Assembly (NCBI GenBank): GCA_020630215.1
Contig: JAHDBT010000009.1
Span: forward strand, 1-41,845
Direction of reading: 5' to 3'
Length of the DNA stretch: 41,845 nt
Origin: Bacteroidota bacterium
Lineage (GTDB): Bacteria; Bacteroidota; Bacteroidia; Chitinophagales; UBA2359
Program-made: the position numbers and the translations under genes
Notes under the pieces: model-generated
Databases searched by the model: none
The model's input: only the letters and a program-made list of their open reading frames with translations
Told to the model about the DNA's origin: nothing
Shown here: positions 8,907-32,671 of the stretch, piece after piece
How positions within the stretch are numbered: the first letter of the stretch is position 1
Layout: each line of letters begins with the position of its first letter

Positions 8907-9905
8907 TTAATACTTTTAATAAAAGGGAAATAGCGTATAAAGGTAGTCTAAGTTTAACACTATTAATAGGCAGTTTACTCAATAATCTTACGAGTTTAAA
9001 ATGCTGTTATGATGCTTGTTTTTAATAAGTAGTCTTTTTAATGCCTATGCCTTCTTGCTGCTTTGTATAGGAGGAAAAAGTACAAGAAAGTAAAATCAAG
9101 TAAAGCCTATTTACAACGTTTCTCAATGCTATTTCGTCTTATATTTTACATTCAGAAATTTTTTGCATCCATTCCTAAGTAAAAATATGGGACTAATTGA
9201 CACAAACTTAGTTTTTTAGCATACATTCCGTACCTTTGCTCCCTCATTTTCAGGTACTTAGATAGATATCCTCATTGCTCCTAGCAATATATACACCCCC
9301 AATAAACAAAACAGACACATCTCTACCAATAAAGAGAAGCAATTTTTAATGACAAATATCGAATGCTTGCTTTTTGAGAAATGTATATAAGTGGCTTATA
9401 ACCAGTACATAAGAAAGAATAATTTTGTTCGATACTACTGTAAAGTAGCCTTTTTTAAATGACAAGCCTAAAAAAATGTTATTGTTAGATAATGTATTTT
9501 TAGCGAACTTTACCCTAAAAGTATTTAATAGGTTAAGCCGGGACAAAACTATTTATTTTTTTTACTAAAAAACAAAAAAATAAGTTAGCAAAACTTAATA
9601 CACTACCTAAATAACAGAATATAATAATATAAAAATTATTTTTGTCTGTTGCAAAACCAATTTGTTTAATTATTACATTGTTTACATTTTAAACCTAAAA
9701 ATGCTCGTGTAAGGAATCGTAGAAAAATCTAACATGCTTTATTTTATGGTATGGTCTTAATACCAAGTAACTGCCAATTTTTTTTAATATAAAGGCTAAC
9801 CACTTAAAATAAACGTGTTAAAAAATGTAAGTTATTTTACGCAATTTCTAAGCTCATTTAGTGAGTTAATACACAGCAAATCCAATTAATTTATACCAGT
9901 TAGCT
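8907..9905. other. 1-kb AT-rich non-coding region between the regulator and the giant gene
   Basis: No plausible gene. The stretch holds a TAnnTTTG motif at 9231-9238, a small hairpin ATTGCT-cct-AGCAAT at about 9274-9288, a second weaker TATTTTTG at 9637-9644, and very AT-rich DNA from about 9540 to 9905. It presumably carries the control region and a long leader of the giant surface protein gene. Confidence 0.5.
9231..9238 (+). promoter_or_regulatory. Putative -7 element upstream of the giant surface protein gene
   Basis: TACCTTTG followed by CT matches TAnnTTTG. The -33 position has no clear TTTG, although TTGACA occurs at 9197-9202. If used, the leader before the ATG at 9906 would be about 660 bases. 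Confidence 0.4.
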
Positions 9906-12900
9906 ATGAAAAAAATTACCTCTCTTTTGTTTCGCTTCTTGTGTTTAGGGGCATTGCTCATTTTTTGTAATCAGCTTCAGGCGCAAAATCCCCCTTATGG
10001 AACTGTTCTAAGCGGACCTACGCTTAATGCGGGTAGTTATGAGTTTGTTATTAGAGCCGACCCTAGTGTGCTGCCAGACTGTGGCTTTTATTCTTTTGAT
10101 TGTAACGATAACGGGCTAGGCATTGAAAATTTACAGATTTACTGGGGCTTACGAGCTTTTGGTAATTGTGCCGATTGTAACGTGGATGATGTACTAGTTG
10201 GATTTGGTATCCTTGAATATGGCTTCTGGGGTACTGCTAGTGTGTTAGGTAGTTTCGACGAAGGCGTTGATTGTGCTACCCCAGGCGGAACAGACCGTAT
10301 CATCTCTATTCCTGAAAACTTATTTTGCTCAGGATTAGACTATGAATTAGTTATTTTTGCCTTTAATCCCGATTACAATAAAGGTTTGCCTGATGGTGGT
10401 ACAGTTGGTCCTGGTGGACCCTATCGTTGTTGTGACGGCGACCCCTCCATTGGTAGTACGGTAGCTATGCAAGCAGAATGTACGTTGCCAATTAATGGCG
10501 GTACGGGTGCAGGATGGTTAAACCCCTCTTATCCTACCGAGTATGCCTTTAACTTTGTAGGGGCATATGTGCCACCCATATTTAACGTAAATACTAATTT
10601 AAACGATGGCGATGTAGTACCCTGTGGTTATAATTTAACCTCCGAGTTTACCATCGAACCCAATACCGCATGTGTACAAAGTACCATTGTGTACCAAATA
10701 TATGTAAACGGAGATATTGTAACCAGCGAAGCGGCCAGTTGTATATCAGAAGAAGGAACTTACAACGCCGACTTTTCTTTTGTTACTTGTCCCGATGACC
10801 CAACTTGTACGCTCCCTCCCGAATTATATCAACTGCCCTGTGGTGAGAATACTATTAGGTGGGAAGCTTTTGAAGATTGCCCCAATGCAGAGGTGATTTT
10901 CTACGAAGCTACCTTTACCGTAGAATGCCCCGAAGCAGATGAATTGACCCTAACAGGCAATACCGTAATTTGTGCAGGAGACGATATTAGCGTAGCAGTT
11001 ACCAATCCAGCCAATGTAAACATTCCTTATACAGGCGGTTCTTACGAAATGCACTGGGATAATAATATGCCTTACACCAACCCAGGCACCAACTATTTAG
11101 GAAGCGGGCAAACCCAAGTTTTAACCAACGATGGTACTTACACGTACAATACCCCTATTACCGTAACAGGTACCGTATGGGAAAACTATAGCACCGTTGG
11201 CCCGCTTGGTTGCGAATCGCAAGCCGTATCCCAATCCTTTGTAATGCTCGAACCTATCGAAGTAAATGTGCTTGACCAACAAGCTTGTAATTTCGGAGGA
11301 ATCAATATCTCCGCAACTGGTGGTATGAATGCGTACGATGGAAGCGATTTTACTTACGATGCAACAAGCGCAGGAGTTGGTACTAATACTACGGGTATCT
11401 TTACAGACGTAACGCCTGGTATTTACGACATCATCGTATCTGATGCCAATGGCTGTTCCGAAACCGTAAGCGTAGAAGTAAATGCACCTATAGATATTCA
11501 ATTCGACCCCTTAGATTGTGCCAACCCAAATGTAATGTCTATCCTAGTAACAGGAGGACAACCTTTTAATCCTGCTTATAATGATCCGACTGCATACCAA
11601 GTACAATCGAACGTGAATGGTATTATTGGACAGTTAGATGCTAGTGGACAATTAACTACTACCTTAACCCCTGGACCTCATACCATCACCGTAAAATACG
11701 ATCACTTAAATCCAGATGGCACTTTATCTGGAATCGACTGTTCGGCAACTATCGAATTTACTGCTTTTACGCCCCTAAATATTGTGGCTAATCCCGACCC
11801 TTGTTTGTTTGGCGGACAGGCGGTTATTGATTTAGTAGAAGGAGGAGATAATACAACTTATACCGTTTTCTTATCAACTACTGCTGCGCCAGGTGCAACA
11901 AATGATGTAGCAAGTACCGAAGGTTCACTTTCGGGTGCAGGCACCTTAACAGGCGTAGCCCCGGGTGATTATTTTGCTGTGGTAGAAGATGCGCAAGGAT
12001 GTCAAACATCGGTAGCCGTAACGGTTAATGATGGTTCGGCTGCTACATTGGTAGTAGGCAACCAAGATTGTGATGCCAATACTGTAACCGTTAATACAAC
12101 AGGCGGTTTAGGTACTTGGACTTACTACGTAATAACAGTAGGAGGTACTTACAGCAATCCTGCCGACCAAATTGTTGCCCCAATTACAGGCACTTCAACA
12201 GGAGGCAATACTTCTGAAGGTTTGTTTACAAACGTGCCAGCAGGTAGCTACGAAGTAGTAGCAGTAAACTCCGATGGCTGTAACGAAGTAGCAGAACCAA
12301 TAAGCACTTTTGACCCAATAAGCATTGAGCAACTCGCTTTTTGTGGTGGTGGCGATATTGGTGTAATGGCTTCGGGAGGTTATACGGGTGCGAATTATAC
12401 CTACAATTTAATTGATGGAACAAGTACTGTAGTAAGCACCAATACGACAGGCGTATTTTCTGGCTTTGCCCCAGGAACTTATACCGTAGAAGTAAACGAT
12501 AATAACCCAAATGTAACAGGCGGTTGTACCGAAACCATTACCCTCGAATTATTTGCTGCTATTGATGTTACCTACTCCGAAGACCCTTGTGTAGGGGCCA
12601 ATGGCGTAGAAGTCTCGGCTTTAAGTGGCGGAGGCGGTACAGAATATACCGTAGTAGTTTCCGAAACTTCTGGTTCTTTAACACCAGCAACTAGTGCTAC
12701 AGGAATGCCCTTAACATTTACCTCCACTAATCCAACCGCCGATTTTCCTTATGTGTTTTTAGACCTTATCGTTGGTACCGATTATTACATTGTAGTAAGC
12801 AGCGGTATTACCGACCCTAGCACAGGCGAATTGTGTACCAGTACATTTGGACCTTTTAATATCCCGGATGCACCAGAGCTAACTTTTATTAGTGCCGATT

Positions 12901-15900
12901 GTGAAAATGATTTTTCGGTAAGCATGGAAGCAACAGCAACAACAGGACCTTACGATTTTTATTTATATACCCTTAACCAAGCATTACAAGGCGCACCTAG
13001 CTTGCCAAGTACCACTTATAACGCTACAAGTGCAACCGCAGGGGCAGCAACAAGCAGTACGGGCAGCCCTTTGGCTATTACAGGCAATAGTAGTAATGCC
13101 ATTACTTTTTCAGAGGTACCTACGGGCTACTATACCGCTTACAGCCTCGATGCAAGTGGCTGTGTAGTATCTACAACCGTAGTACAATCTTACGAACCTT
13201 TAACCCTCGAAATTGCAGCAGGCGATTGCTCTACCAATACCATTACAGTATCAACAGTTTATGGTGGTCACGACCCCGATGTTTTTAGTGATGCCAGTAA
13301 CTATAGCGTATTCTTATCAAGTCAGGACGCTCCTAATGGTGCTGCCGACATTACCAACAATCAAGGAACTTTAAATGGCGCAGGTACTTTTACCAATGTG
13401 CAAAGTGGCAGCTTTTACGCTATTGTTGAAGATGATAGAGGATGTCAATACTCAGTACCTGTCTCTATTGGTGGCGATATTAGTTTAACATATACCCCCG
13501 CTTGCGATACGCCTACAGGTAGCGCACAAGTAAGCGCAGTTGGCGGTTCTGCCGATTGGGACTTTTACCTATACAATCCTACTGGCACTTTTGATGTCAA
13601 TAATCCTACTAGTGCTGCCAACGGATGGGTAGCTAGTGATACTGGCGATGGTTCGGGTAGTGATGTTGCAGGCGATTTCTCTGGAATAACAGCAGGCCCA
13701 TATACCGCACATGCCGTAGATGCAGGAGGCTGTATTACCCAATTAACAGATGTGCAAGTTTACGACCCTTTAGCCATTACAATTGATGAAACCGCTTGTA
13801 CCTTTGGAAGTGCAGCTATTAGCAGCGCAACAGGTGGTACCGATCCTGCTTTGTTTAGCAATGGCACTTATACCATTTTCTTATCAACCGTTGCTGCTCC
13901 TGGTGCAAGTAATAATGTAACTACCAACGAAGGCACACTATCTGGTGCAGGTATTTTTACAGGTGTAGCATCAGGTAGCTACCATGCCGTACTAGAAGAT
14001 GCCAACGGTTGCCAGGTTTCTGTGCCAGTTACCGTAGATGAAGGAAACCTAGAAGCAGCCACTACCGACGATTGTACCGCACTAGCCGTACAAGCAACTG
14101 GTGGCACACCAACATGGACTTTTTATGCCTATACCACAGGAGGTACTTTTGATGCCGCAAATCCTACCAATGCAGGAAACGGTTATGTAGCTACTAGTGC
14201 AGGAGATGGCAGCGGATTAGGAACTTTTACAGGTTTAAGCGCAGGTACTTACGATGTATATGGCTTAGATGAAAATGGTTGTCAGGTAGCCTTAACTGGA
14301 TTGGACTTAAATCCTGATGGATTGAGTATTTCGGAAGATACAGGTTGTGAGTATGGTAGTGTAATAGTAAGTGCAACAGGTGGCGAAAGCCCATTTACTT
14401 ATACTTTACTTAATAGCGGAGGCGGAACAGTTGATAGCAACACAACAGGTACTTTTGCAGGTGTTGCAGCAGGTACTTATACCGTTAATGCCGTAGATGC
14501 CAATAATTGTGACGGTACAACAACCGTAACCGTTTACGACCCTATTGCCCTAGTAGAACCCTACAATTGTTATACAGGTATTTCGGCTACAGGCGGTTCG
14601 AGCAGTAGTTATACTTTTGAATTATACGATAGTGCAACGCCTCCTAATTTAGTGGCAAGCAGTATTACAGGTATTTTTCCTAATAGTGTAGCTGGCGGCG
14701 ATTATCAATTAGTGATTATAGATGATGCAGGTTGCCAATTATTAACCAACGTAAACTGCGAACCCCTTCCTTGTGATTTAGATGCAACCGCTTCCACAAC
14801 TTGTGAAAGTGGCGATGAGTTTTCGGTAAATGTAGTCATTACAGGTTCTAACACCTACACCATTAACGATGGCATGGGCGGTACTTTAACAGGACAAAGC
14901 CCTGGCACTATTAACGTAGGACCATTTCCTAATGGCGAGTTTAATATTGAGGTAATTAACGAAGATGACCTCACTTGTGTCATTCCTTTAAATGGTTCGG
15001 AAAATTGTTTTAACTGTAACTTAATGGCAACCGTAACTCCCGAATGTATCGACAGCGAAGAATTTAACCTAAATATTTTAACAAGTGGAAACGGCACTTT
15101 TGTAATTGATGATGGAACAACAACTTACGATAATATTACCTCTGGCGCATTAATCGGCCCCTTTCCTAGTGGACCCTACAACATAACAATTACCAGCGAA
15201 GTAGACCCTACTTGTGTAGAAACTTTTACAGGAGAAAGCGATTGTTCTTCTTGTGATTTAAGCTTGGATTATTATACAGAATGTATCGACAATAACAACT
15301 TTTTATTAGTAATGACCATTACAGGTAGCGATGAGTATATTGTTACGGATGGTACAATTGTACTAAGCGGCTACGAAGCTGGCGTACACGAAATTCCCTT
15401 TATTTATGATGGTACGTACATGATTGAAGTATACAGCGAAACCAATCCCGATTGTACGCAAACCATCCTATTTAATGGTAGCAATTGTATAGAATGTGAT
15501 TTGGAAACATCGGCTACTACCGAATGTGCAGGCATTGACGGCTATAATGTAATTGTAACCGTATCAGGTTCTAGTAATTATATCATTGATTCGGGTTTTG
15601 GCGCACCTATTTTTAACCAACCCGCAGGCGTGTATACCATTACGGGATTAAACAATGGCAGCTATGCCGTAACCGTAACCGACCTATCAGAACCAGGATG
15701 TTCGTTTGTACTAACAGGCGAGGAAGATTGTTTCGATTGTGAGTTAGTGGCCTCCGCTACTACCGAATGTGTAGACATTAACAATATTGAAGCAACTTTT
15801 ACCATTGCAGGTAATGGTACTTTTACGATTACTGATGGGACAACGGTTTTATCAGGCATTAGTGCAGGTACCGAAACCGTATCGCTTCCTGAAGGCAGTT

Positions 15901-18900
15901 ACAGCTTTGATGTGATAAGTGAGGAGGATGCAAGCTGTGTAGAAACCGTTACCTTAGAACAGGATTGTGTGGATTGTGATTTAGACGCAACAGCTACTAC
16001 CGAATGTGTGGGGGTGTTTAACTACAATGTAATTATTAACCTAACAGGAACAAGCACCTACACTATTTTTGATGGAACGAGTGCTTTAACAGGACAAACC
16101 GCAGGAATAATTAATGTAGGCACTTTTGCTAATGGTCCTTACACCATTACCATCTCCGACGAAAACAATTTAGCCTGTACAAAACTGCTTAGTGGCGAAG
16201 CCGATTGCTTTGAATGCGACTTAGCAGCAACCGCTACTACCGAATGTGTAGACGATTTTAACTATAGTGTAAATATAAACTTAACAGGCAGCAGCACCTA
16301 TACCATAAGTGATGGTGTTAATCCTGATTTAACAGGACAAACGGCTGGTAATATTGTAGTAGGACCTATTCCTAATGGCACTTACGCTATTACCATTACC
16401 GACGAAACGGAGGATACTTGTAACGAAACTTTAACGGGCGATAAAGATTGCCTCGAATGTAACCTCGGCGTAAGTTATACTACCGAATGTGTAGACTTCG
16501 AGAACTTTAATGTACTACTCGATATTACAGGAACAGGTACATTTAGCATCAATGATGGCACAACAACACAAACAGGAATAAGTGCAGGACAACAGACTTT
16601 AAGTTTCCCTAATGGAAATTATACAATCGTAGTGAATAGCGAATTGATTGCCGATTGTAGCGAAACCATTAGCGTTACCGAAGATTGTTTTGAATGCGAT
16701 TTAAACGCCTCCGCAATAACAGAATGTATTGACCTAGAAACCTACAACGTAATTGTTACTTTAACAGGTAGCGATACTTATACCCTTGTAGATGGACTAG
16801 GAGGTGCTTTAACAGGACAAGCAGCAGGTACGTTTACCTTTGGACCCTATCCTAATGGCCCTTACAATATCACCATTACAAGCGAATCGGATGTTACTTG
16901 TAACGAAGCTTTAACAGGAGAAAAAGATTGTTTTGAGTGCGACTTATCTGTAAATTATACCACAACTTGTTTGGACTTAGAAAGCTTCGAATTAAATATT
17001 TCTATAGCAGGCTCGGATACGTATACCATTACAGATGGCACCATTAATCTAACTGGAAATACTGCTGGCGACCGTACCATTACTTTGCTCAATGGTACGT
17101 ATGCCATAGATGTTATTAGCGAAACCGATGGCACTTGTTTAGAAACCATCAATGTAACCGAAGATTGCTTTGAGTGTGATTTAACGGCTTCCGCTGTAAC
17201 AGAATGTATCGACGATTTTAATTACAATGTAGTGGTTACCCTAGCAGGCAGCGACACTTATACCATTGTAGATGGAATAGGAGGCATATTTACTAATCAA
17301 ACTCCTGGCACTTACACCTATGGACCTTATCCTAATGGCGATTACAACATCACCATTACTAGCGAAACCGATGTGACTTGTAATGAAGCACTAACGGGTA
17401 CAAAGGATTGTTTTGAATGTGACTTATCCGTAAGTTATGTTGCCGATTGTATTGATTTAGCCTCTTTCGATTTAACCATCACCATAGCAGGCTCTGGTAC
17501 GTATACCATTAGCAACGGACCTATTAACCTATCAGGAAATCCTCCTGGCGACCGTACCATTACTTTACTTAATGGTACTTACTCCATAGATATTACTAGC
17601 GAAACAGACCCAACTTGTACCGAAACCATTAGCGTAACCCAAGATTGTGAGGAATGCGACTTACAAGCATCCGCTTCTACAACTTGTATAGATGGACAAA
17701 GCTATAATGTAGTTGTAAACTTATCTGGTAGCGATACCTATACCATTAACAACGGGCTAGGCGGTATCCAAACAGGACAAACCGCAGGGAATGTTACGGT
17801 TGGGCCGTTTTCAAATGGCGATTACAACATCACCGTAACGAGCGAAAACGTATCCGATTGCGAACAAGTATTAACAGGCTCGGAAGATTGTTTAGAATGC
17901 GATTTACAAGCCTCTGCTTCTACCGCTTGTGTCGATAATTTTAGTTATAATGTAGTCGTCAACTTATCAGGTAGTGATACTTATACTATTAATGATGGAC
18001 TAGGTGGTATCCAAACAGGACAAACCGCAGGCAATATCACGGTAGGTCCTTATCCAAACGGCGATTACAACATCACCGTAACGAGCGAAAATGTAGCCGA
18101 TTGCGAACAAGTATTAACAGGCTCGGAAGATTGTTTAGAATGCGATTTACAAGCCTCTGCTTCTACCGCTTGTGTCGATAATTTTAGTTATAATGTAGTC
18201 GTCAACTTATCAGGTAGTGATACTTATACTATTAACGACGGACTAGGCGGTATCCAAACAGGACAAACCGCAGGCAATATCACCGTAGGGCCATTTCCTA
18301 ATGGCGATTACAGCATTACCATAACCAGCGAAAATGTAGCCGATTGCGAACAAGTATTAACAGGCTCGGAAGATTGCCTCGAATGTGATTTGCAAGCCTC
18401 TGCTAATACCGAATGTATAGATAACTTTACCTACAATGTTATTGTTAACTTATCAGGTAGCGATACTTATACCATTAACGATGGACTAGGAGGGGTGCAA
18501 ACAGGACAATCAGCAGGTAACATCACCGTAGGGCCTTATCCAAATGGCAATTACAACATCACCATTACTAGTGAAAATGTAGACAATTGCGAACAAATAT
18601 TAACAGGAACTGCCGATTGTTTAGAATGCGATTTATCAGTAAGCGCAACTACTCAATGTATTGATGGCTTTAACTACAATGTAGTAGTTAGTTTAGCTGG
18701 TAGTGATACTTATACCATTAATGATGGACTAGGAGGATTGCAAAATGGGGTAGCGGCTGGCAATATTACTTTTGGCCCATATCCAAATGGCAGTTACAAC
18801 ATCACCGTAACCAGCGAAAATGTAGCCGATTGCCAACAGATACTCACGGGTAACGAAGACTGTTTTGAGTGCGATTTAACCGCCTCCGCTACCACCGAAT

Positions 18901-21900: not shown

Positions 21901-24900
21901 CTCAAGTAGGCGTAGAACCAGGTACGGTTGTATTAGGCCCTTACGAAAATGGCGGTTACGATGTAGTCATTACCAGCGAGTTCGACCCAACCTGTACTTC
22001 AACGGTAAGTGGCGACAACGACTGTTTTGTGTGCGATTTACAAGTATCGGCAACTACCGAATGTGTTAACGAAAACCTATACATTATTTATGTAAACTTA
22101 CAAGGTACTGGTTTATTCAGCGTACAAGGTGGCGATTTTGACCCACTGTTTGGACAAAGTGCGGGTATTATTGAACTAGGGCCAATTAGTGCAGAAAACT
22201 CTCCTTATACCATTACCGTTACCAGCGAATTGGAAGAGGAATGCCAAGCAGTAATTAATAGTGCCGTTGATTGTACCGTGCCTTTTGAATGTGATTTACA
22301 AGTAGGCGCAACTACAACCTGTGCCGACGACGGCGATGGGTATTATGTAGTTGTTAATCTTAATGGTTCTGGTTCTTATAGTATCGAAAGTGATAACTCA
22401 GACCTCGTATTATTTGACCAAACAGCAGGAACAATTGATTATGGACCTATTGAGAATGGTTCGTACAGCCTAACCATTACCAGCGACCAAGAAGAGGACT
22501 GCGAATTGTCTTTATCTGGAACGCAGGATTGTAGCGAAGAACCAGAGTGTGATTTGGGAGCCGTTACTAGTATTAACTGTATAGGAGTAAGCGAGTACGA
22601 AGTTGTATTGACCTTATCTGGTTCGGGCGTTTTTACTTTAGATGATGGCGTAAACGACCCACTAACAGGACAAACGGCTGGCGAAATCATTCTTGGACCT
22701 TTACCAAATGGCGATTTTAGTATCGACATTCAACAAGTAGGAAATCCAGAATGTGCAACAACCGTATCAGGAACAGGAGTTTGTAGTTTCGATTGTGAAC
22801 TCACCATTAATTCTGATATTGTTTGTGCACCAGATAGTACAAGTTATAATGTGGTTTTAGAAATTATTGGCGAAGACAGCTATTCTATTGTAGATGGAGT
22901 AAGCGAACCGATAACTGGCGTGTCAGGCGGTACGATTGTATTAGGGCCTTATCCTGATGGCGATTACTCCATTAGTGTAACCAACGAAACCAACTCTTTT
23001 TGTAACCAAGGTATTAGCGGTAACTTTTTCTGCTCGCAAACACAAGTATGCGATTTAGAAGTAGACCTCGAACCTTATTGTGATGATGGCGTATTGTACA
23101 TCGTCATGACGCTGCAAGGAAGTGGCGTATATACTATTTACGATGGTTTCTCTGGCGAATTAAATGGGGCAACCGCAGGGACCTACGAATTTGATATGGG
23201 TACCTCTACGGTATTTGAATTATACGAAATTGTAGACGAAGACAACCCCGATTGTAACGTTACCCTAGAACTAGGAAATGGCTGTGATGGCAATTGCGAC
23301 CTAGAAGTTTACTATGAAGTAGAATGTTTACCAAATGGCGACTACAACTTAATAGTAGAACTAGTAGGAACAGGTACTTATGATATACAAGCACAAAGTA
23401 GCTTTTTCGACCAACAACAAATTAACGATGTAGGCGCAGGGTTTTATACCATTGAAGGTTTAGTAAACGACGATTTTGATTTATTTGTTGACCAAAACGG
23501 ACCAGGACTTTGCCAAGCAGACATTGAAGGGAATGGCGATTGCGAACCTTTTAATGATTGTGATTTAGGCATTAACCTAGTAACAAGCTGTTTAGCAGAT
23601 GGGCAATTTATGATTACCGCCTTTATTGAAGGTAGCGCACTATACACCATTGATGATGGAACAGGCACTTTAATAGAAGACGTTCCTGCTGGAGAGTACG
23701 AACTCGGCCCTTACGAAGCAGATGCCTACTTCTTCCAAATATACGATGCTAATAATACCTTCTTCGATTGTATTGCTACTAGCTTAATTTCTTTTGGTGG
23801 ATGTGATGATTTTTGTGCGTTTGATATCGCTTACGAAACCATCTGTACAGGACCGGATACTTATTTCATCAACCTAACCATTAACGACAACGACAGCGGA
23901 GGCAACTACGATATTAACGATGGCTTTTTCACCTTTATAGAGGATGTGCCTGCGGGCGAATACGAACTCGGTCCTTACACCGAAGATTTCTTCTTCTTTG
24001 TAGTAGTAAGCATTGCCGACGAACCAGATTGTTTCCAAGACTTTTTTGGCAATAGCAATTGTACCGATAACCAAGCCTGCGATTTATCCGCTAGTATCGA
24101 ACCCGTTTGTTTAGACGATGGTTCTGGTTTTGAAATTACCCTAAGCATTACAGGTACGGGACTTTACTCCTTCGATTATGGCGATGGCTCGGAAGATGGA
24201 CTGGCTGCAGGTGATTACACTTTCGGACCATTCGAAAATGGAGCCTATAATATCGAAATTAAAGACGAAACACAAACAAGCTGTTTCCAATCTTTTGAAG
24301 GTTCTTACTTCTGTGAACCGCCACCTCCTTGCGACTTAGCAGCTTCGGCAGCACCCGTATGTAGCGACGAAGGCACCTTTACCCTAGCAGTAGATATTTC
24401 TGGAACAAGTGTTTATTCCATTTACCAAGACGATATCCCGCTAGTAACAGGCATTTCTGCCATCGAACTAGAAGTAGGAAATTATCCTAGCGGTAGCGAA
24501 TACGAAATTAAAATTGTAGACGATAATAACAGCGCTTGTTTCCAATACGTAAGCGGTGTGTTCTCTTGTGGCATATTACCTGTTTGTGATTTAGTGGTAA
24601 CGCCAATTGTACAGTGTGAAGGAAACGATTATAACCTCTTAGTAGAACTAACGGGTAGTAGCACCTATACCATTATTGTAAATGGAATAGCATTAGAAGG
24701 ACAGACAGAAGGCAGTATTGGCTTAGGGCCTTTTAGTGGCGATGTATATGATGTAGAAGTATTTGACGAAAACGACGACCAATGTACACAAGCGGTATCT
24801 GGTTTGGCAAGCTGTGGCGAAACGCCATTATGTGATCTAAATGCCAACTTAACCATAGAATGTATTGGCAACGATGAGTACATCGTAACCTTGGAATTAG

Positions 24901-27900
24901 AAGGCTCAAGTACGTACGATATTTACGATGGGCTAGAAGTAGGATTCCCTGATTTTACAGATTTACTCATAGAGGATATAACAGCAACAGACAGTCCTGT
25001 TTCTGTTGGACCTTTTGATAATGGTACTTTTAGAGTACTGGTAATTGACCCAGAAAATACAGATTGTTTTGTTGACTTTATTGGCTTCCGTGATTGTGAA
25101 AACCCAGAGGTTTGTGACTTAAATGCATCTGTGCAAACCTTATGTAACGATGATGATACTTTTGATGTACTCGTATCGGTAGAAGGTTCTTCTACTTACT
25201 GGGTACGATTATTTGATAGCTGGGGCGGACCCGAAATTGACGAACTAGTAGGGGTTAATGGAGGCGAAACGGTACAACTTGGTGCGGTAACTAGTGGCGA
25301 ATATTACATATTTATTCAAGATGAAGAATTTGGACCTTGCGACCAAGACTTCCGTGGAACGGTTTCTTGTAGCGAAGGTGGCAACCCTTGTGATTTAGTT
25401 ACCAACTCGCAAGTTGTGTGTGTGGATGATGGAACTTTCTTTGTGGTAGTAACCATAGAAGGCGACGAAATATACGATATTGAAACTGGCTTTGGCGGCC
25501 CTGGTGGCGGCGGCGATGTGAACAATGTAGAAGCAGGTACTTACGAACTAGGACCCTTCTTCGAGTTCTTTGGTGGTTTCTACAACTTTACTGTAGAAAG
25601 CGATCAAAGCGATTGTTTCAGCACTACCAGCGGAACCATTAATTGTTCTGACCCGCCACTAGGTTGTGATTTACAAGCCAGCGTGGAAATTGATTGTGTA
25701 GAAGGTGATACTTACAACTTGGTCTTAACCATTGAAGGTTCGGGCACTTATTTTGTAGAAAGCAACGTATCTAACCAAGACGGTTTAACCGCAGGCGAAT
25801 ACACCATTGGCCCACTAAGCTTAAATACCTACGAAATATTTATTGAAGAAGAAGGCAATGACGGGTGCTTCCAAAATTTATCGGGTACCGAATCGTGTGA
25901 AGAACCCGACCCGAATTGTGATTTAGTACTCGACCCAATAATTGACTGTATTGATGAAAATAGCTTTAATATTACCATAGATATTGCAGGCTCGGATACC
26001 TATATTGTAGACGATGGCAATGGCAATGTGTTAACAGGGCAATCGGCTGGCGACTTAGACCTAGGCGAATTCCCTAATGGCGGATATAGTATTACCGTTA
26101 CTAGCGAAGCCAGTCCTAATTGTATACGAAGCGTAGCAGGTAACAACAACTGTTCGGACCCACCAGTAGCTTGTGATTTACAAGTGAGTGCTGGTTCGGC
26201 ATGTGAAACAGAAGACAGCTACGAATTGATTATTATTATTGAAGGTTCTAGCACCTACTGTATTGACTTAGGCGATGGCAGCGACCCAATTTGTGGACAA
26301 ACCGCTGGTGACATCAGCGTAGGATCTTTACCAAATGGTTTCTTCGAAGCAACCGTAACGGATGAAGACAGTCCTGATTGTTTCCAAAGTATTTCTGGTT
26401 TTGAAGATTGTAGCAACCCATTTATATGCACATTAGAAGTAAATTCAACAACCAACTGTTTAGCAGACGGAACAACTTATAATGTAGTACTCGATATTAC
26501 TGGCGAAGGCAACTATACCATCGAAACAGGATTAGGCGAAGACTTAACAGGACAAACCGCAGGAACAGTAACCGTAGGACCTTATCCTAACGGACCTTAC
26601 AATATTGTAGTAACACACGAGGAGGAAGCAACTTGTTTCCAAGAATTATCGGGTATCAATATTTGTGAAGAACCTACCGTTTGTGATTTATTAGCCTCCG
26701 CAGCTACCGAGTGTATTAACACCGATACCTACAATGTGCTTGTCGAATTAGCAGGCTCTAGTACTTATACAATTGATGATGGTATTAACGAACCTCTAAC
26801 CGCACAAACCGCAGGTACCATTGCGGTAGGGCCAATTCCTAACGGAACCTATGGCGTAACTATTACCGACGAAACCAATGGAGCTTGTTTCCAATTACTA
26901 GAAGGCGCAGGCGCATGTGCCGTACCTGTTGAGTGCGATTTGTTAGCAGAAGTAAGTACCGAATGTATTAGTGAAGAAGGATTTGATGTAATACTAGAAA
27001 TTACAGGTACAGGTGTTTATTGTGTTGATTTTGCAATTGATGCAGCACCAATTTGCGATTACATAGAAGGGACCTATAACATAAGAACTTATGGTAATGG
27101 CAACTATTTCTTCCAAGTTTATGAAGCAGACAGTGAAGAGTGCCAACAACAATTCTTTGGCAGTCAAAACTGTGCGCCTCCTGCCGAATGTGATTTAGAA
27201 GCAGGCGGTTTGGCTCTTTGCGATCCAAGTTCGGAAGGTTATGTAGTTTCTTTAACCATACAAGGTTCTAGCACCTACCGTATTGATGATGGTGTAAATT
27301 TTGTAATAACAGGCGTTAATGGTGGTGCAGTAATTACCGAACTTATCCCGAATGGCGATTATGAAATTGTAATTACCGACGAAACCAATCCTGCTTGTTC
27401 GCAAACCTTAGAAGGTACACAAGATTGTGAGAATCCAATTAGTTGCCCGTTACTAGTAATTCCTAGTACCGAGTGTGCCGATGAAGATGGATACATGTTA
27501 TCCTTAAACATTGCAGGTAATCCAGAGGTAACCTATTGCGTAGACTTAGGAAATGGCGAAGACCCAATTTGTGGTTTAGAAATAGGGGAGGAAGAGTTTG
27601 GCCCATTACCAAACGGCGATTACGAAGTAAGCGTTTACGATGAAACAAATCCCGAATGTTTGCAAACACTCTCGGGAACACAAAGTTGTAGTGTACCTGT
27701 TAGCTGCGATTTACAAGCAAGCGGACTCGCAACCTGCGAAGAGGATGGTACAGGATTTATCATAAGCATTACCATAGTAGGTACTAGTAGTTATACCATT
27801 GAGGATGGTGTTAATGAACCAATAACAAGCGTAACTGCAGGTGTTGTTGATACAGAAATGCTTCCTAATGGCGATTATGAAATTGTAATTACCGATAACA

Positions 27901-30884
27901 ATAATCCAACCTGTACACAAACCTTAGCGGGTACACAAGTATGTACACCTCCTACCGAATGTACTTTACTAGTAATACCTGCTGCTATATGTGAAGATGA
28001 TGAAACCTACACCTTAAGTATTGAGGTAACAACAACAAGTGGATCGAGCTATTGTATTGATTTAGGTAATGACGAAGACCCAATTTGCGGATTAACAGAT
28101 AGTGATTATGAGATAGGTACTTTCCCGAATGGCGATTATGAAATAAACGTTTATGAGGAAGACAATCCAACCTGTTCGCAAACCATTTCGGGTAGTCAAA
28201 ACTGCTCTGAGCCTATTTGTGATTTACAGGCAGGCGGTATAGCCGTTTGTAATGCCGATAATGATGGATATGTTGTAGAACTAGTAATTGTTGGTGCAAG
28301 TGTTTACACCGTTGACGATGGGGTAAATGACCCAATAGGAGGCATTACTGCTGGAAACCTTATTACCGATTTTATTCCTAATGGCAACTACGAAATTGTA
28401 ATTACTGATGAAAACAATCCAGGTTGCTCACAAGTTTTATCAGGTTCGCAAAACTGTGCAGAACCAGTAATTTGTACCTTAACCGTACTGCCAATTACAG
28501 CATGTATAGACGAAGGCAATTATTTACTAAGCCTCGATATTGGAGGTAGCGAGGATGCGACCTATTGTATAGATGCAGGAACGGAGGACCCAATTTGTGG
28601 TTCGATAGGTATAGTGGAAGTGGGTACTTTCTCGAATGGCAATTATCAAGTAATTGTTTATGAACAAGACAATCCTGGTTGTTCGCAAACCATTACTGGC
28701 TTACAAGATTGTTCAACTCCTCCAGTAGGATGTGATGCCCAACTCAACATCATTAGCACTGCTTGTGTAAATACCGATAGCTATAATGTAATTGTAGAAG
28801 TATTAGGCGGCGGCAGCTATACTATTGATGATGGCATAAATGACGAAATAACGGATGTAACGGCTGGCGAAATAACCGTAGGACCAATTCCTAATGGCAG
28901 CTACTTTATAACCCTTACCGACCAAGCTAATCCTGGCTGTATACAAAGTAGAGGTGGCAATGCAAGTTGCGACGAAGTTTTTGTTTGTGATTTAGAAGCA
29001 TCGGCGCAGCCAATATGTTTAACTGCGGCAGATTATAGTGTGGTAATTGATTTAACAGGCTCTAGCACCTACACCATTGATGATGGCAACGGAAACCTAC
29101 TAGAAGGACAAGTAGCTGGAGAGGTAGTACTAGGACCATTCCCGAATGGCGCATATACTATTAGTATTGTAGACGAAGCAGAAGAAGCTTGTTTCCAAAA
29201 CATTTCGGGTACTTGGAACTGTGCTGGTCCTTGCGACTTAGCAGCTATACCAGAACCTGTATGTTTAAACAATGCCTTCTACGAAATAGAACTGACCATA
29301 TCTGGTAGCAGTACCTACACCATTGACGATGGCATTAACAGCCCTCTCGAAAGTCAAACCGCAGGTACCATTATACTTGGACCTATTCCAAATGGTTTTT
29401 ACGAAGTAAGCATTATCGACGATGCGAATCCAGATTGTGCCTTAGTATTATTTGGGCAACAAAACTGTAATCCAGGTTGTGATATAGTAGCCGACGCAAC
29501 TTCTACCTGTACCGAAAACGGAGAGTATGAGGTAACAATTACTTTTGAAGGCAGCAGTATTTACACCATCGACGATGGCATACACGAACCTTTAACAGGA
29601 CAAACAACCAACTCTTTAATTTTAGGCCCATTTGTAAGTGGCGTTTACAGCATCACGATACAAGACGAAAACAATGCTTCGTGTTTAACCAATATTCAAG
29701 GCGAGCAAAATTGTTTAGCAGCATTAGAATCGGGCATTGGTTTATTTGTTTTCCTAGATATGAATGAGGATGGTATTTTTGATGAAGCAGAAGACGGTTT
29801 AGAAGGAGTAGAAGTAACCCTTTATAGTTTAGATAATGAAGTGGTAGATGTTACTACAACCGATTCTAATGGCGAATTTTTATTCCCGAATGTGCCACCA
29901 GCAGAATATTACCTAGCATTTGATATTCCTAGCGGCTACATAGTATCGCCACAGAACGAAGGAAACGACGAAACGCTAGATAGTGATATTGACGAAGTTG
30001 GTAAAACCGAAGTGTTTGTATTAGCCGATGGAGAAGTAGTACTAGACTATGGCGCAGGGGTTTATCCTGATCCAGTTTGCGAGGGCTTATTTGCCAATAT
30101 AACCGAAGTATGCGAAGGCGGCGAAGGTTTACTTGGTGTAGTAATAGTAGAAGGCACACCACCTTACATTATTGATGGCGGCGACTTATATTTTGCCGAA
30201 GTTGGGCCAGATGATTTCCCATTAGATTATATCGGTCCTATTCCAAATGGCAGCACCTACAGCTTTGTAATTACGGATGCGAATGGTTGTCCTGCTGGCG
30301 AGTTTGCTGGCGAGTTTAATTGCGAAACCGTACCCGTAGAGTTAATCAGCTTTAGCGGTCAAGTGCTAGTAGATGGCAACCAATTAAAATGGGTAACCGC
30401 CTCAGAGTACAACAACGATCACTTTAAACTGATGCACTCTATTGATGGCACTAACTTTAACCCAATTGCCATTGTAGAAGGCGCAGGCACAAGCAGCAGC
30501 AGCAACAACTACGCACACCTACACAAAGAAGCACCAAACGGGTTAAGCTATTACCGCCTAGACCAATTTGACTACGATGGTTCCATGACCCAATCTAACA
30601 TCATCACCTTAATACGTGGCGAGCTAGTATTTGGTATCAACGACATACACCCTGTTCCATCAAGCGATTTTGTGGAGGTTAACTTTAGCACCGATTTACA
30701 AACTATCCAAGTACAAGTAACTATTTACGATGTAATAGGCAGGGTAGTAGCGGTACAAGATATACCCGTTATTAACGGTAATAACACCCATCGTTTAGAT
30801 ATTCGCAACTACGCAGCAGGCACTTACATTATTAGCCTTAATAATGGCAACAGTATTGTAAGTAGCAAGTTTGTGAAAGAATAA
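9906..30884 (+). CDS. Giant T9SS-secreted repeat protein (6,992 residues), SprB-like surface adhesin
   Basis: One uninterrupted frame of 6,992 codons. Residues 1-26 are a signal peptide (MKK start, hydrophobic core, cleavage near LQAQN). Residues about 27-450 are a unique Cys-containing region. About 13 SprB-like units follow (about 450-1620), each with a GTYTVxVxDxNGC-type ending. From residue 1623 to about 6605 there are about 60 tandem repeats of 75-85 residues that open with CDL and TEC, pass through a G-x-Y-T-I-x-D-G strand and G-P-x-P-N-G turn, and close with two more cysteines: four per unit. An SdrD-B-like domain (about 6608-6722) comes next, then a degenerate 61st unit, a linker domain beginning VPVELISF (about 6817), and a T9SS type A sorting domain (about 6910-6992, ending KFVKE). 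It is probably exported through T9SS and attached to the cell surface. SprB of Flavobacterium (about 6,500 residues, gliding adhesin) is the nearest analogue in size and layout; adhesion or gliding is inference. Confidence 0.85.
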   Translation: MKKITSLLFRFLCLGALLIFCNQLQAQNPPYGTVLSGPTLNAGSYEFVIRADPSVLPDCGFYSFDCNDNGLGIENLQIYWGLRAFGNCADCNVDDVLVGFGILEYGFWGTASVLGSFDEGVDCATPGGTDRIISIPENLFCSGLDYELVIFAFNPDYNKGLPDGGTVGPGGPYRCCDGDPSIGSTVAMQAECTLPINGGTGAGWLNPSYPTEYAFNFVGAYVPPIFNVNTNLNDGDVVPCGYNLTSEFTIEPNTACVQSTIVYQIYVNGDIVTSEAASCISEEGTYNADFSFVTCPDDPTCTLPPELYQLPCGENTIRWEAFEDCPNAEVIFYEATFTVECPEADELTLTGNTVICAGDDISVAVTNPANVNIPYTGGSYEMHWDNNMPYTNPGTNYLGSGQTQVLTNDGTYTYNTPITVTGTVWENYSTVGPLGCESQAVSQSFVMLEPIEVNVLDQQACNFGGINISATGGMNAYDGSDFTYDATSAGVGTNTTGIFTDVTPGIYDIIVSDANGCSETVSVEVNAPIDIQFDPLDCANPNVMSILVTGGQPFNPAYNDPTAYQVQSNVNGIIGQLDASGQLTTTLTPGPHTITVKYDHLNPDGTLSGIDCSATIEFTAFTPLNIVANPDPCLFGGQAVIDLVEGGDNTTYTVFLSTTAAPGATNDVASTEGSLSGAGTLTGVAPGDYFAVVEDAQGCQTSVAVTVNDGSAATLVVGNQDCDANTVTVNTTGGLGTWTYYVITVGGTYSNPADQIVAPITGTSTGGNTSEGLFTNVPAGSYEVVAVNSDGCNEVAEPISTFDPISIEQLAFCGGGDIGVMASGGYTGANYTYNLIDGTSTVVSTNTTGVFSGFAPGTYTVEVNDNNPNVTGGCTETITLELFAAIDVTYSEDPCVGANGVEVSALSGGGGTEYTVVVSETSGSLTPATSATGMPLTFTSTNPTADFPYVFLDLIVGTDYYIVVSSGITDPSTGELCTSTFGPFNIPDAPELTFISADCENDFSVSMEATATTGPYDFYLYTLNQALQGAPSLPSTTYNATSATAGAATSSTGSPLAITGNSSNAITFSEVPTGYYTAYSLDASGCVVSTTVVQSYEPLTLEIAAGDCSTNTITVSTVYGGHDPDVFSDASNYSVFLSSQDAPNGAADITNNQGTLNGAGTFTNVQSGSFYAIVEDDRGCQYSVPVSIGGDISLTYTPACDTPTGSAQVSAVGGSADWDFYLYNPTGTFDVNNPTSAANGWVASDTGDGSGSDVAGDFSGITAGPYTAHAVDAGGCITQLTDVQVYDPLAITIDETACTFGSAAISSATGGTDPALFSNGTYTIFLSTVAAPGASNNVTTNEGTLSGAGIFTGVASGSYHAVLEDANGCQVSVPVTVDEGNLEAATTDDCTALAVQATGGTPTWTFYAYTTGGTFDAANPTNAGNGYVATSAGDGSGLGTFTGLSAGTYDVYGLDENGCQVALTGLDLNPDGLSISEDTGCEYGSVIVSATGGESPFTYTLLNSGGGTVDSNTTGTFAGVAAGTYTVNAVDANNCDGTTTVTVYDPIALVEPYNCYTGISATGGSSSSYTFELYDSATPPNLVASSITGIFPNSVAGGDYQLVIIDDAGCQLLTNVNCEPLPCDLDATASTTCESGDEFSVNVVITGSNTYTINDGMGGTLTGQSPGTINVGPFPNGEFNIEVINEDDLTCVIPLNGSENCFNCNLMATVTPECIDSEEFNLNILTSGNGTFVIDDGTTTYDNITSGALIGPFPSGPYNITITSEVDPTCVETFTGESDCSSCDLSLDYYTECIDNNNFLLVMTITGSDEYIVTDGTIVLSGYEAGVHEIPFIYDGTYMIEVYSETNPDCTQTILFNGSNCIECDLETSATTECAGIDGYNVIVTVSGSSNYIIDSGFGAPIFNQPAGVYTITGLNNGSYAVTVTDLSEPGCSFVLTGEEDCFDCELVASATTECVDINNIEATFTIAGNGTFTITDGTTVLSGISAGTETVSLPEGSYSFDVISEEDASCVETVTLEQDCVDCDLDATATTECVGVFNYNVIINLTGTSTYTIFDGTSALTGQTAGIINVGTFANGPYTITISDENNLACTKLLSGEADCFECDLAATATTECVDDFNYSVNINLTGSSTYTISDGVNPDLTGQTAGNIVVGPIPNGTYAITITDETEDTCNETLTGDKDCLECNLGVSYTTECVDFENFNVLLDITGTGTFSINDGTTTQTGISAGQQTLSFPNGNYTIVVNSELIADCSETISVTEDCFECDLNASAITECIDLETYNVIVTLTGSDTYTLVDGLGGALTGQAAGTFTFGPYPNGPYNITITSESDVTCNEALTGEKDCFECDLSVNYTTTCLDLESFELNISIAGSDTYTITDGTINLTGNTAGDRTITLLNGTYAIDVISETDGTCLETINVTEDCFECDLTASAVTECIDDFNYNVVVTLAGSDTYTIVDGIGGIFTNQTPGTYTYGPYPNGDYNITITSETDVTCNEALTGTKDCFECDLSVSYVADCIDLASFDLTITIAGSGTYTISNGPINLSGNPPGDRTITLLNGTYSIDITSETDPTCTETISVTQDCEECDLQASASTTCIDGQSYNVVVNLSGSDTYTINNGLGGIQTGQTAGNVTVGPFSNGDYNITVTSENVSDCEQVLTGSEDCLECDLQASASTACVDNFSYNVVVNLSGSDTYTINDGLGGIQTGQTAGNITVGPYPNGDYNITVTSENVADCEQVLTGSEDCLECDLQASASTACVDNFSYNVVVNLSGSDTYTINDGLGGIQTGQTAGNITVGPFPNGDYSITITSENVADCEQVLTGSEDCLECDLQASANTECIDNFTYNVIVNLSGSDTYTINDGLGGVQTGQSAGNITVGPYPNGNYNITITSENVDNCEQILTGTADCLECDLSVSATTQCIDGFNYNVVVSLAGSDTYTINDGLGGLQNGVAAGNITFGPYPNGSYNITVTSENVADCQQILTGNEDCFECDLTASATTECVDASTYNVLLTLSGTGTFTVNDGNNTLVAQTAGILNLGPYPNGNYSITITSEIDPTCVETVSGSKDCFECDLSVSAVTQCVDDFNFNVLLTLDGTGTFIVDDGINLPIAGQPSGSITFGPYPNGDYSITVTSQTDDTCFEVASGIEDCFECEINVNANTECVDAFNYNVNLNLTGPGTFTLDDGINPPLTGQVAGTISFGPYPNGDYSILITSETDDTCTETVSGSKDCFECDLSLNATNECIDQFTYNTVLTITGPGTFTVDDGINTPLTGQAAGLLTFGPYNNNDNYNILVTSETDDTCFETATGTNDCFECDLQINTSPVCIDAFTYNVTLTIAGSGTFTVDDGINSPLTGQTSGNITIGPLDNGLNTITVTSEEDSNCVEIANINENCFECGLEANAVTECIDDFNYNVVVTFAGEGTYTLVDGGGETLANQSAGTATFGPYENGGYSIAITSDLETNCFEILSGTEDCFDCTLQASATTECIDDFTYNVILTFEGEGTYIIDDGMNPALVGQVSSTVTMGPFDNGNYNITITSETDPTCTETVSGTKDCFECDFTANAITECIDAENYNVTLTLAGEGTYSIDDGINLPLTGQTAGDIPLGTFTNGDYSIVVTSEVNADCFETISGSNDCFECDLEISTTTACTSLEGYDASIVINGTGTYSITEGDAVYALDFVGGETFNWPFTNGPHTIIITSNIDPTCTETITVEDDCLVCTLEASATTECEEGTGDFMVTVVIAGEGVYTLDDGINDPQTGFTAGTYTVGPYPSGLYNIQITDPEIEDCEASLSDAVECFVCEVVGNTSTTCVDAGNYNLIYQFSGNGTYTIDNGDGTPLTGVTAGAVLIGTYPNGTYSFTVTSEIDETCTFDYNGENDCFECDLVAAAFTECNDLETYNVILEVSGQGTFTIDTGIEVLTDQTAGSFNFGPFASGADYNINIISDFEDTCIEVFTGSEECFECELPTNANSVCIDEDSYQISFVIGGNGTYTVDDGIDPPQVGVEPGTVVLGPYENGGYDVVITSEFDPTCTSTVSGDNDCFVCDLQVSATTECVNENLYIIYVNLQGTGLFSVQGGDFDPLFGQSAGIIELGPISAENSPYTITVTSELEEECQAVINSAVDCTVPFECDLQVGATTTCADDGDGYYVVVNLNGSGSYSIESDNSDLVLFDQTAGTIDYGPIENGSYSLTITSDQEEDCELSLSGTQDCSEEPECDLGAVTSINCIGVSEYEVVLTLSGSGVFTLDDGVNDPLTGQTAGEIILGPLPNGDFSIDIQQVGNPECATTVSGTGVCSFDCELTINSDIVCAPDSTSYNVVLEIIGEDSYSIVDGVSEPITGVSGGTIVLGPYPDGDYSISVTNETNSFCNQGISGNFFCSQTQVCDLEVDLEPYCDDGVLYIVMTLQGSGVYTIYDGFSGELNGATAGTYEFDMGTSTVFELYEIVDEDNPDCNVTLELGNGCDGNCDLEVYYEVECLPNGDYNLIVELVGTGTYDIQAQSSFFDQQQINDVGAGFYTIEGLVNDDFDLFVDQNGPGLCQADIEGNGDCEPFNDCDLGINLVTSCLADGQFMITAFIEGSALYTIDDGTGTLIEDVPAGEYELGPYEADAYFFQIYDANNTFFDCIATSLISFGGCDDFCAFDIAYETICTGPDTYFINLTINDNDSGGNYDINDGFFTFIEDVPAGEYELGPYTEDFFFFVVVSIADEPDCFQDFFGNSNCTDNQACDLSASIEPVCLDDGSGFEITLSITGTGLYSFDYGDGSEDGLAAGDYTFGPFENGAYNIEIKDETQTSCFQSFEGSYFCEPPPPCDLAASAAPVCSDEGTFTLAVDISGTSVYSIYQDDIPLVTGISAIELEVGNYPSGSEYEIKIVDDNNSACFQYVSGVFSCGILPVCDLVVTPIVQCEGNDYNLLVELTGSSTYTIIVNGIALEGQTEGSIGLGPFSGDVYDVEVFDENDDQCTQAVSGLASCGETPLCDLNANLTIECIGNDEYIVTLELEGSSTYDIYDGLEVGFPDFTDLLIEDITATDSPVSVGPFDNGTFRVLVIDPENTDCFVDFIGFRDCENPEVCDLNASVQTLCNDDDTFDVLVSVEGSSTYWVRLFDSWGGPEIDELVGVNGGETVQLGAVTSGEYYIFIQDEEFGPCDQDFRGTVSCSEGGNPCDLVTNSQVVCVDDGTFFVVVTIEGDEIYDIETGFGGPGGGGDVNNVEAGTYELGPFFEFFGGFYNFTVESDQSDCFSTTSGTINCSDPPLGCDLQASVEIDCVEGDTYNLVLTIEGSGTYFVESNVSNQDGLTAGEYTIGPLSLNTYEIFIEEEGNDGCFQNLSGTESCEEPDPNCDLVLDPIIDCIDENSFNITIDIAGSDTYIVDDGNGNVLTGQSAGDLDLGEFPNGGYSITVTSEASPNCIRSVAGNNNCSDPPVACDLQVSAGSACETEDSYELIIIIEGSSTYCIDLGDGSDPICGQTAGDISVGSLPNGFFEATVTDEDSPDCFQSISGFEDCSNPFICTLEVNSTTNCLADGTTYNVVLDITGEGNYTIETGLGEDLTGQTAGTVTVGPYPNGPYNIVVTHEEEATCFQELSGINICEEPTVCDLLASAATECINTDTYNVLVELAGSSTYTIDDGINEPLTAQTAGTIAVGPIPNGTYGVTITDETNGACFQLLEGAGACAVPVECDLLAEVSTECISEEGFDVILEITGTGVYCVDFAIDAAPICDYIEGTYNIRTYGNGNYFFQVYEADSEECQQQFFGSQNCAPPAECDLEAGGLALCDPSSEGYVVSLTIQGSSTYRIDDGVNFVITGVNGGAVITELIPNGDYEIVITDETNPACSQTLEGTQDCENPISCPLLVIPSTECADEDGYMLSLNIAGNPEVTYCVDLGNGEDPICGLEIGEEEFGPLPNGDYEVSVYDETNPECLQTLSGTQSCSVPVSCDLQASGLATCEEDGTGFIISITIVGTSSYTIEDGVNEPITSVTAGVVDTEMLPNGDYEIVITDNNNPTCTQTLAGTQVCTPPTECTLLVIPAAICEDDETYTLSIEVTTTSGSSYCIDLGNDEDPICGLTDSDYEIGTFPNGDYEINVYEEDNPTCSQTISGSQNCSEPICDLQAGGIAVCNADNDGYVVELVIVGASVYTVDDGVNDPIGGITAGNLITDFIPNGNYEIVITDENNPGCSQVLSGSQNCAEPVICTLTVLPITACIDEGNYLLSLDIGGSEDATYCIDAGTEDPICGSIGIVEVGTFSNGNYQVIVYEQDNPGCSQTITGLQDCSTPPVGCDAQLNIISTACVNTDSYNVIVEVLGGGSYTIDDGINDEITDVTAGEITVGPIPNGSYFITLTDQANPGCIQSRGGNASCDEVFVCDLEASAQPICLTAADYSVVIDLTGSSTYTIDDGNGNLLEGQVAGEVVLGPFPNGAYTISIVDEAEEACFQNISGTWNCAGPCDLAAIPEPVCLNNAFYEIELTISGSSTYTIDDGINSPLESQTAGTIILGPIPNGFYEVSIIDDANPDCALVLFGQQNCNPGCDIVADATSTCTENGEYEVTITFEGSSIYTIDDGIHEPLTGQTTNSLILGPFVSGVYSITIQDENNASCLTNIQGEQNCLAALESGIGLFVFLDMNEDGIFDEAEDGLEGVEVTLYSLDNEVVDVTTTDSNGEFLFPNVPPAEYYLAFDIPSGYIVSPQNEGNDETLDSDIDEVGKTEVFVLADGEVVLDYGAGVYPDPVCEGLFANITEVCEGGEGLLGVVIVEGTPPYIIDGGDLYFAEVGPDDFPLDYIGPIPNGSTYSFVITDANGCPAGEFAGEFNCETVPVELISFSGQVLVDGNQLKWVTASEYNNDHFKLMHSIDGTNFNPIAIVEGAGTSSSSNNYAHLHKEAPNGLSYYRLDQFDYDGSMTQSNIITLIRGELVFGINDIHPVPSSDFVEVNFSTDLQTIQVQVTIYDVIGRVVAVQDIPVINGNNTHRLDIRNYAAGTYIISLNNGNSIVSSKFVKE
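14772..29720 (+). repeat. Array of about 60 cysteine-rich protein repeats
   Basis: I counted 60 units by their opening CDL-type motif (variants CNL, CEL, CTL, CGL, CPL). Most units are 225-260 bp. Conserved positions are four cysteines, the D-G before the central turn, T-A-G, G-P-x-x-N-G and a Y-x-I-x-I-T-x-E strand, which suggests a disulphide-linked beta-sandwich. Up to unit 31 neighbours are joined by a tight C-x-x-C junction (typically DCFECDL); from unit 32 the junctions are longer and often Pro- or Glu-rich. Confidence 0.85.
17655..18869 (+). repeat. Five tandem units of exactly 243 bp each (array units 13-17)
   Basis: Unit starts at 17655, 17898, 18141 and so on to 18869 give 1,215 bp, exactly 5 x 243. 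Units 14 and 15 are almost identical in DNA, including synonymous positions, whereas distant units share only protein motifs. This is the youngest part of the array. Confidence 0.85.
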
Positions 30885-30987: not shown

Positions 30988-31074
30988 GTGGAACGAGTTT
31001 TGACTCGTTTATTTTGTTGAGAAGATGCAAGCTTAACGTGAACGAGAGATTAAAGTATGAAGAAAGTAGTTCAC

Positions 31075-32661: not shown

Positions 32662-32671
32662 TCTGTAAACG

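Follow-up and report, generated by a model that had tools for sequence, protein, structure and literature searches.

A giant T9SS cargo protein of an uncultured Bacteroidota bacterium with a two-zone array of four-cysteine units probably related to the SprB repeat

The SprB protein of F. johnsoniae, a giant T9SS cargo of 6,497 residues (PMC9870892), rides the gliding track together with its own carrier, SprF (PMC12635249). Such type B cargo remains on a carrier of its own, whereas PorV carries type A cargo, which is subsequently either anchored or released (PMC12635249); when SprB of F. johnsoniae is given type A signals it becomes static or is released (PMC12618676). A further set of described giants comprises the subunits of multi-chain grappling hooks, namely GhpA of Aureispira, a protein of 5,898 residues (PMC13319060) that is also exported by the T9SS (PMC11205867), and GhlA of Litorilinea, which is made of DUF11 domains and whose 49 beta-domains give filaments of about 180 nm (PMC13319060). 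The protein described here is a giant T9SS cargo of a size similar to that of SprB, and resembles GhpA and GhlA in being a string of beta-sandwich domains some 6,000-7,000 residues in length. It differs from SprB in bearing a type A signal with no adjacent SprF, and from the hook proteins in having no sequence match to them and, with respect to GhlA, in being devoid of DUF11 domains.

The window analysed, a stretch of 41,845 nucleotides, comes from an uncultured Bacteroidota bacterium represented by a draft genome of 767 contigs that is 90 % complete. A single open frame at positions 9906-30884 of the + strand encodes 6,992 residues with zero internal stops. From the N- to the C-terminus, and including a putative signal 3' of the gene, its layout is as follows:

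9906..9983 (+), residues 1-26: signal peptide, a hydrophobic N-terminus by inspection, with a predicted cut before QNPPY
9984..10928 (+), residues 27-341: cysteine-rich head, delimited by alignment and conserved in five of the genomes
10971..11285 (+), residues 356-460: linker beta domain, by sequence inspection
11286..14756 (+), residues 461-1617: about 13 SprB-like repeats with two cysteines each and a DANGC motif, by hhalign
14772..22031 (+): array zone A, four-cysteine units 1-30, with two-residue linkers between Cys4 and the next Cys1 (CFEC)
22032..29723 (+): array zone B, four-cysteine units 31-60, with linkers of 3-6 residues
29736..30053 (+), residues 6611-6716: SdrD_B-like domain (PF17210, 1.7e-26)
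30078..30323 (+), residues 6725-6806: stand-alone 61st four-cysteine unit with the SprB signature DANGC, by profile comparison
30330..30635 (+), residues 6809-6910: pre-CTD beta domain (VELISFSG...NIITLIRG), conserved in a tail alignment of seven orthologues
30645..30875 (+), residues 6914-6990: T9SS type A C-terminal sorting domain (PF18962, 7.7e-14; TIGR04183, 1.7e-12)
30991..31010 (+): terminator-like hairpin 3' of the giant gene, from a consensus scan only (1 found against 0.3 expected)

The sorting domain exceeds the cut-offs of both of its models (47.1 bits against 23 for TIGR04183 and 52.2 against 27 for PF18962, Por_Secre_tail), and the host genome encodes SprA (2297.9 bits), GldM (327.5 bits) and a full-length PorU sortase (1369.5 bits). 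With a sorting domain over cut-off and genes for the translocon, motor and sortase all present, the protein can be placed among the T9SS type A cargos. The initial annotation had presented it as a giant T9SS surface protein, which is borne out; likewise, PF17210, Por_Secre_tail and TIGR04183 match where it had positioned the SdrD_B and sorting domains. The mature start (QNPPY or ENPPY) lines up across five orthologues in an alignment. The cysteine-rich domain that follows is probably the distal tip, and no recognisable binding domain was found in the head. Its AF2 model, obtained from an alignment of three sequences, reaches a pLDDT of only 61, and matches of the head to arrestin/RbmA-type folds were set aside for this reason. 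As to the head units that had been termed SprB-like, the Pfam SprB model detects none of them at E up to 1, but profile-profile comparison by hhalign relates them to SprB repeats of the same order at 98.1 % (E 6.9e-14).

The array itself consists of exactly 60 tandem units of 79-94 residues, extending from residue 1623 to about 6606 (nucleotides 14772-29723, when split at the CDL cysteine). Each follows the pattern Cys1-x9-Cys2 ... Cys3-x9/10-Cys4, and all four cysteines are present in 60 of 60 units despite a mean pairwise identity of 36 %. A previous count of about 60 four-cysteine repeats is thereby made exact for the tandem array, and has to be corrected for the 61st unit standing alone after the SdrD_B domain. 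Across ten genomes the four cysteines are retained in 522 of 554 distinct units; clean losses are few, with one event in which Cys2 and Cys4 were lost together, and the candidate pairings are 1-3/2-4 versus 1-4/2-3. Unit 61, as well as single four-cysteine units that sit between other domains at two other loci (L036 and L037), have no neighbor to bond with, which favors disulphides within units and disfavors a bond from Cys4 of one unit to Cys1 of the next. On sequence grounds, two intra-domain disulphides most likely brace each array unit, suggesting a way in which cysteines might brace giant T9SS proteins. Units 47, 50, 52, 54 and 56 (26172-28730) bear an extra cysteine pair (YCID...PICG), whose recurrence in the alternate units 52, 54 and 56 suggests that unit pairs were duplicated and that there is an additional hairpin disulphide.

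The composition of the array is strongly skewed, with 0.38 % K+R, 16.3 % D+E and 5.0 % C; there are 9 lysines and 10 arginines in its 4,984 residues, and the homologues are similarly depleted (0.25-0.70 % K+R in all). This depletion could serve as protection against trypsin-like proteases. The K+R content is also low, if less extremely (0.8-2 %), in giants of the same genome with repeats of the SprB or DUF11 type, which indicates that the depletion is in part a general trait. An AF2 model of units 18-20 yields three sandwiches of seven strands each at a pLDDT of 96, in agreement with the beta-sandwich form first proposed for the units; its pTM of 0.63 leaves the inter-domain geometry open, and the stiffness of the fibre thus gains no support from it.

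To place the unit among known domains, the 60 units were compared with the Pfam and NCBIfam models, none of which fits, so that the main repeat is indeed uncatalogued, as had been claimed. Scattered matches to models such as Iron_transport and the Stp1 phosphatase were rejected, since they are short, at best just attain the cut-off and do not recur from unit to unit. HYR_4C (PF23237) resembles the unit in being a four-cysteine Ig-like extracellular domain but is absent from the Pfam matches of the array and from the best 25 families for the 60 units. The SprB repeat model PF13573 has no match in the array pieces at E up to 1, and hence none reaching its gathering cut-off. No PDB chain of note was related by sequence to the unit profile or, in phmmer searches, to the head and array, and no published description of the four-cysteine repeat was found in the literature outside subscription papers, the latter including the original GhpA paper. 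In profile-profile comparison, the array units of the window match the SprB repeats of the same order at 64.8 % (E 6.2e-5) and a set of 506 non-redundant array units does so at 87.9 % (E 3.2e-6), with shuffled and reversed controls reaching at most 7.7 %. The alignment pairs the cysteine of the SprB DANGC motif with Cys3. Taken by itself this direct similarity is weak and lies below conventional certainty, the array units being SprB-like to a lesser degree than the head units and differing from the SprB repeat in their second cysteine pair.

Unit 61 matches both the array-unit profile (95 %, 2.9e-8) and the SprB profile (96 %, 1.4e-9), and its four-cysteine form is retained alongside SprB-type features in four other orthologues; as judged from these profiles it is transitional between the SprB repeat and the array unit. 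Moreover, the best viral fold match of the model of units 18-20 is a phage protein annotated as "SprB repeat" (4.6e-8), which leads the next one by about two orders of magnitude. Taken together with the weak direct match, these two observations make a kinship with the SprB superfamily probable, though not certain; the array unit would accordingly be a divergent Ig-like domain of the SprB type that carries a further pair of cysteines. The suggestion of an undescribed class was accordingly too strong, given this probable relationship and the presence of the domain elsewhere in the class Bacteroidia. The unit adds an uncatalogued extracellular domain to the surface-protein toolkit of the Bacteroidota. 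The PDB fold matches of the same model are immunoglobulin and fibronectin strings, with fragments of GhpA prominent among them, and include the giant tandem-Ig proteins SiiE and GhpA. SiiE, the giant calcium-binding adhesin of Salmonella, thus resembles the window protein in its tandem Ig-like domains, but it employs type 1 export and calcium-stiffened linkers where the window protein uses the T9SS and cysteines.

Homologous giants, or parts of them truncated by contig ends, are carried by nine other genomes, together spanning eight genera including that of the window. Their ORFs, some of which are cut by contig ends, attain up to 11,190 residues and 27-111 units; in the annotation of Chitinophagales MAGs such genes are met as nameless proteins of 4,000-11,000 residues. 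Among the matches listed, the unit profile recovered 17 of the 20 listed family members, 12 of them below 1e-15, and gave five weak matches in the rest of the 249 genomes of the order. No conserved gene neighborhood is shared between the window and the homologues. One homologue has a head differing from that of the window and matching HYR_4C (L044:14013-17236), and two others have DUF11 domains in the head. As the head domains differ while the array and tail are kept, heads appear to have been swapped among the homologues. In two genomes of a single genus the four-cysteine giant adjoins another giant ORF (no less than 2,350 and 3,819 residues, respectively) that ends in an apparent type B gliding-motility C-terminus. 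Short four-cysteine arrays are also found in five genomes of another family of the class, one with 13 units within a stretch of 1,085 residues and several using CTPPC-type linkers. The occurrence of the domain elsewhere as short arrays and single copies makes the giant arrays look like the amplification of an existing domain.

The subdivision of the array into two zones is a new finding, absent from the initial annotation. In the window protein, Cys4 and the following Cys1 are separated by a linker of two residues at the first 30 junctions and of 3-6 at the other 29. This design is conserved, with two-residue linkers being followed by linkers mostly of 3-7 residues, and the short-then-long order is seen in every homologue that holds both kinds of linker; the split falls after 51 of 111, 36 of 84, 22 of 71, 20 of 49, 20 of 49, 23 of 34, 13 of 27 and 4 of 16 units, each of these arrays showing 3-6 exceptions. 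Of the nine arrays with both linkers, seven, among them that of the window, had 0 of 2,000 shuffles reach the observed linker order; the remaining two gave 2 of 2,000 and, for the shortest array, 120 of 2,000. The nearest foreign relative of a zone A unit is itself a zone A unit in 237 of 242 cases when the whole unit is compared and in 214 of 242 when only the core is used, and the overall same-zone fraction of nearest foreign relatives is 0.77 as against 0.51 with shuffled labels. Relatives being thus nearest within the same zone, the division into zones is probably older than the divergence of these genera, after which the lengths of the zones would have changed independently. Zone B linkers are longer and often contain proline, and the switch from two-residue to longer linkers might be a specific design rule for the mechanics of the fibre.

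The combination of a type A signal with the lack of a SprF neighbor makes a static or shed extended fibre most likely. Our preferred reading, to which we assign a probability of about 0.6, is that the giant T9SS cargo forms an extended adhesive stalk, static or shed, of cysteine-braced units of the SprB type; its disulphide pairing, length, orientation, anchoring and adhesion are what we infer. The signal peptide would take the protein across the inner membrane and the SprA translocon would pass it through the outer one; it would then follow the type A route of PorV/PorU and become either attached to the cell surface at its C-terminus or set free in the matrix. Some 75 small Ig-like beta-sandwiches in a row would make up the chain, which, were the C-terminal end anchored, would carry the head (the cysteine-rich domain and SprB-like repeats) about 200 nm outward, with zone A as the distal shaft and zone B as a looser proximal part. 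A rise of about 3.7 nm per domain, as in GhlA, gives an estimate of about 220 nm for 60 units, in keeping with the order of 200 nm proposed from the outset. Such a structure would most likely serve to hold particles, neighbors or flocs, as an adhesive stalk of long reach or as a fibre of the matrix.

Of the competing explanations, the idea that the long frame is a repeat-assembly artefact, a possibility that the initial annotation had itself raised, derives from the draft state of the genome with its 767 contigs and from one exact repeat of 139 bp. The 15-kb array contains just one other exact repeat of at least 40 bp (50 bp in length), its units are well diverged, and the architecture recurs in the nine other, independently assembled genomes; we therefore discard this idea as extremely improbable. 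The near-identical units 13-16 diverge mostly at synonymous codons, which fits protein-coding duplicates under selection, and the number of near-identical units in the region of 17854-18327 may still be wrong by about one. A mobile gliding adhesin working like SprB or RemA and carried along the GldJ/GldK track is suggested by the SprB-like repeats of the head, by the presence in the genome of GldM, of a gene resembling GldJ and of ten PorP/SprF proteins over threshold, and by RemA itself, an adhesin associated with gliding whose sorting signal is of type A (PMC12618676). Yet the contig of the window is absent from the 45 type B (TIGR04131) matches of the genome, its tail being of the TIGR04183 type, and the neighboring ORFs encode AAA_21, RloB, VIT/VWA, SurE and AraC proteins but no PorP/SprF, matches to which lie on other contigs. 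Furthermore, of the gliding genes proposed for checking, GldM is present whereas the GldJ match falls below the family cut-off, and SprB given the type A signal of RemA is immobile (PMC12618676), albeit the conclusion from this F. johnsoniae chimera may not carry over to the window protein. We hence consider a gliding function unlikely, and the kinship to a gliding protein put forward earlier is not upheld by the type A signal and the gene neighborhood.

The notion of a hook subunit like GhpA or GhlA, catching prey or neighboring cells, draws on the comparable size and shared export route mentioned above, on the fact that fragments of GhpA, the top structural matches of the window units, account for 8 of the best 22 Foldseek PDB matches, and on the DUF11 domains, the building domain of GhlA, in the heads of the two homologues. 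It is made very doubtful by the absence of any GhpA chain from the phmmer matches of the head and array and from the unit-profile matches, by fold matches that are level with those to ordinary fibronectin and Ig strings (Z 8-10), and by the failure to find the T6SS sheath protein VipB in the 90 % complete genome, though the model used may miss the T6SS of Bacteroidota. A separate DUF11 giant on contig C674 of the same genome is also a better counterpart of GhlA; it spans positions of about 9177-20400 and has 4,234 residues, with about 20 strong DUF11 domains, about 20 % D+E and no cysteine in the stretches read. A shed structural protein of the biofilm or floc matrix, rather than an adhesin attached to the cell, would be compatible with type A signals that can end in release (PMC12618676) and with the very acidic array, which could bind cations or matrix polymers. 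Sequence alone tells neither release nor anchoring, and the conserved head suggests a specific function at the tip; we hold this option to be improbable. More speculative, and rather unlikely, is an extension to the entire family, whereby a two-zone disulphide-braced fibre of a domain absent from Pfam, encoded in most members by one giant array gene per genome, would have a tight distal shaft and a loose proximal stalk, the lengths of both being tuned by the number of units, with several chains possibly running in parallel in a hook- or cable-like organelle.

Beyond the static or shed adhesive stalk that we favor for the giant protein, the rest of the window presents some additional genes. Directly downstream (31393-33382) are an AAA_21 ATPase (PADLOC AbiLi, 4.4e-93) and an RloB-like protein (AbiLii, 1.2e-26), which by these matches constitute a candidate AbiL-type, abortive-infection-like phage defence system. 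A protein with VIT and VWA domains is encoded further downstream (33668-35866). At 39908-41386, an IS91-type transposase is distributed over two ORFs, one comprising Zn_Tnp_IS91 and the start of Y2_Tnp and the other the end of Y2_Tnp, and is probably a broken insertion sequence.
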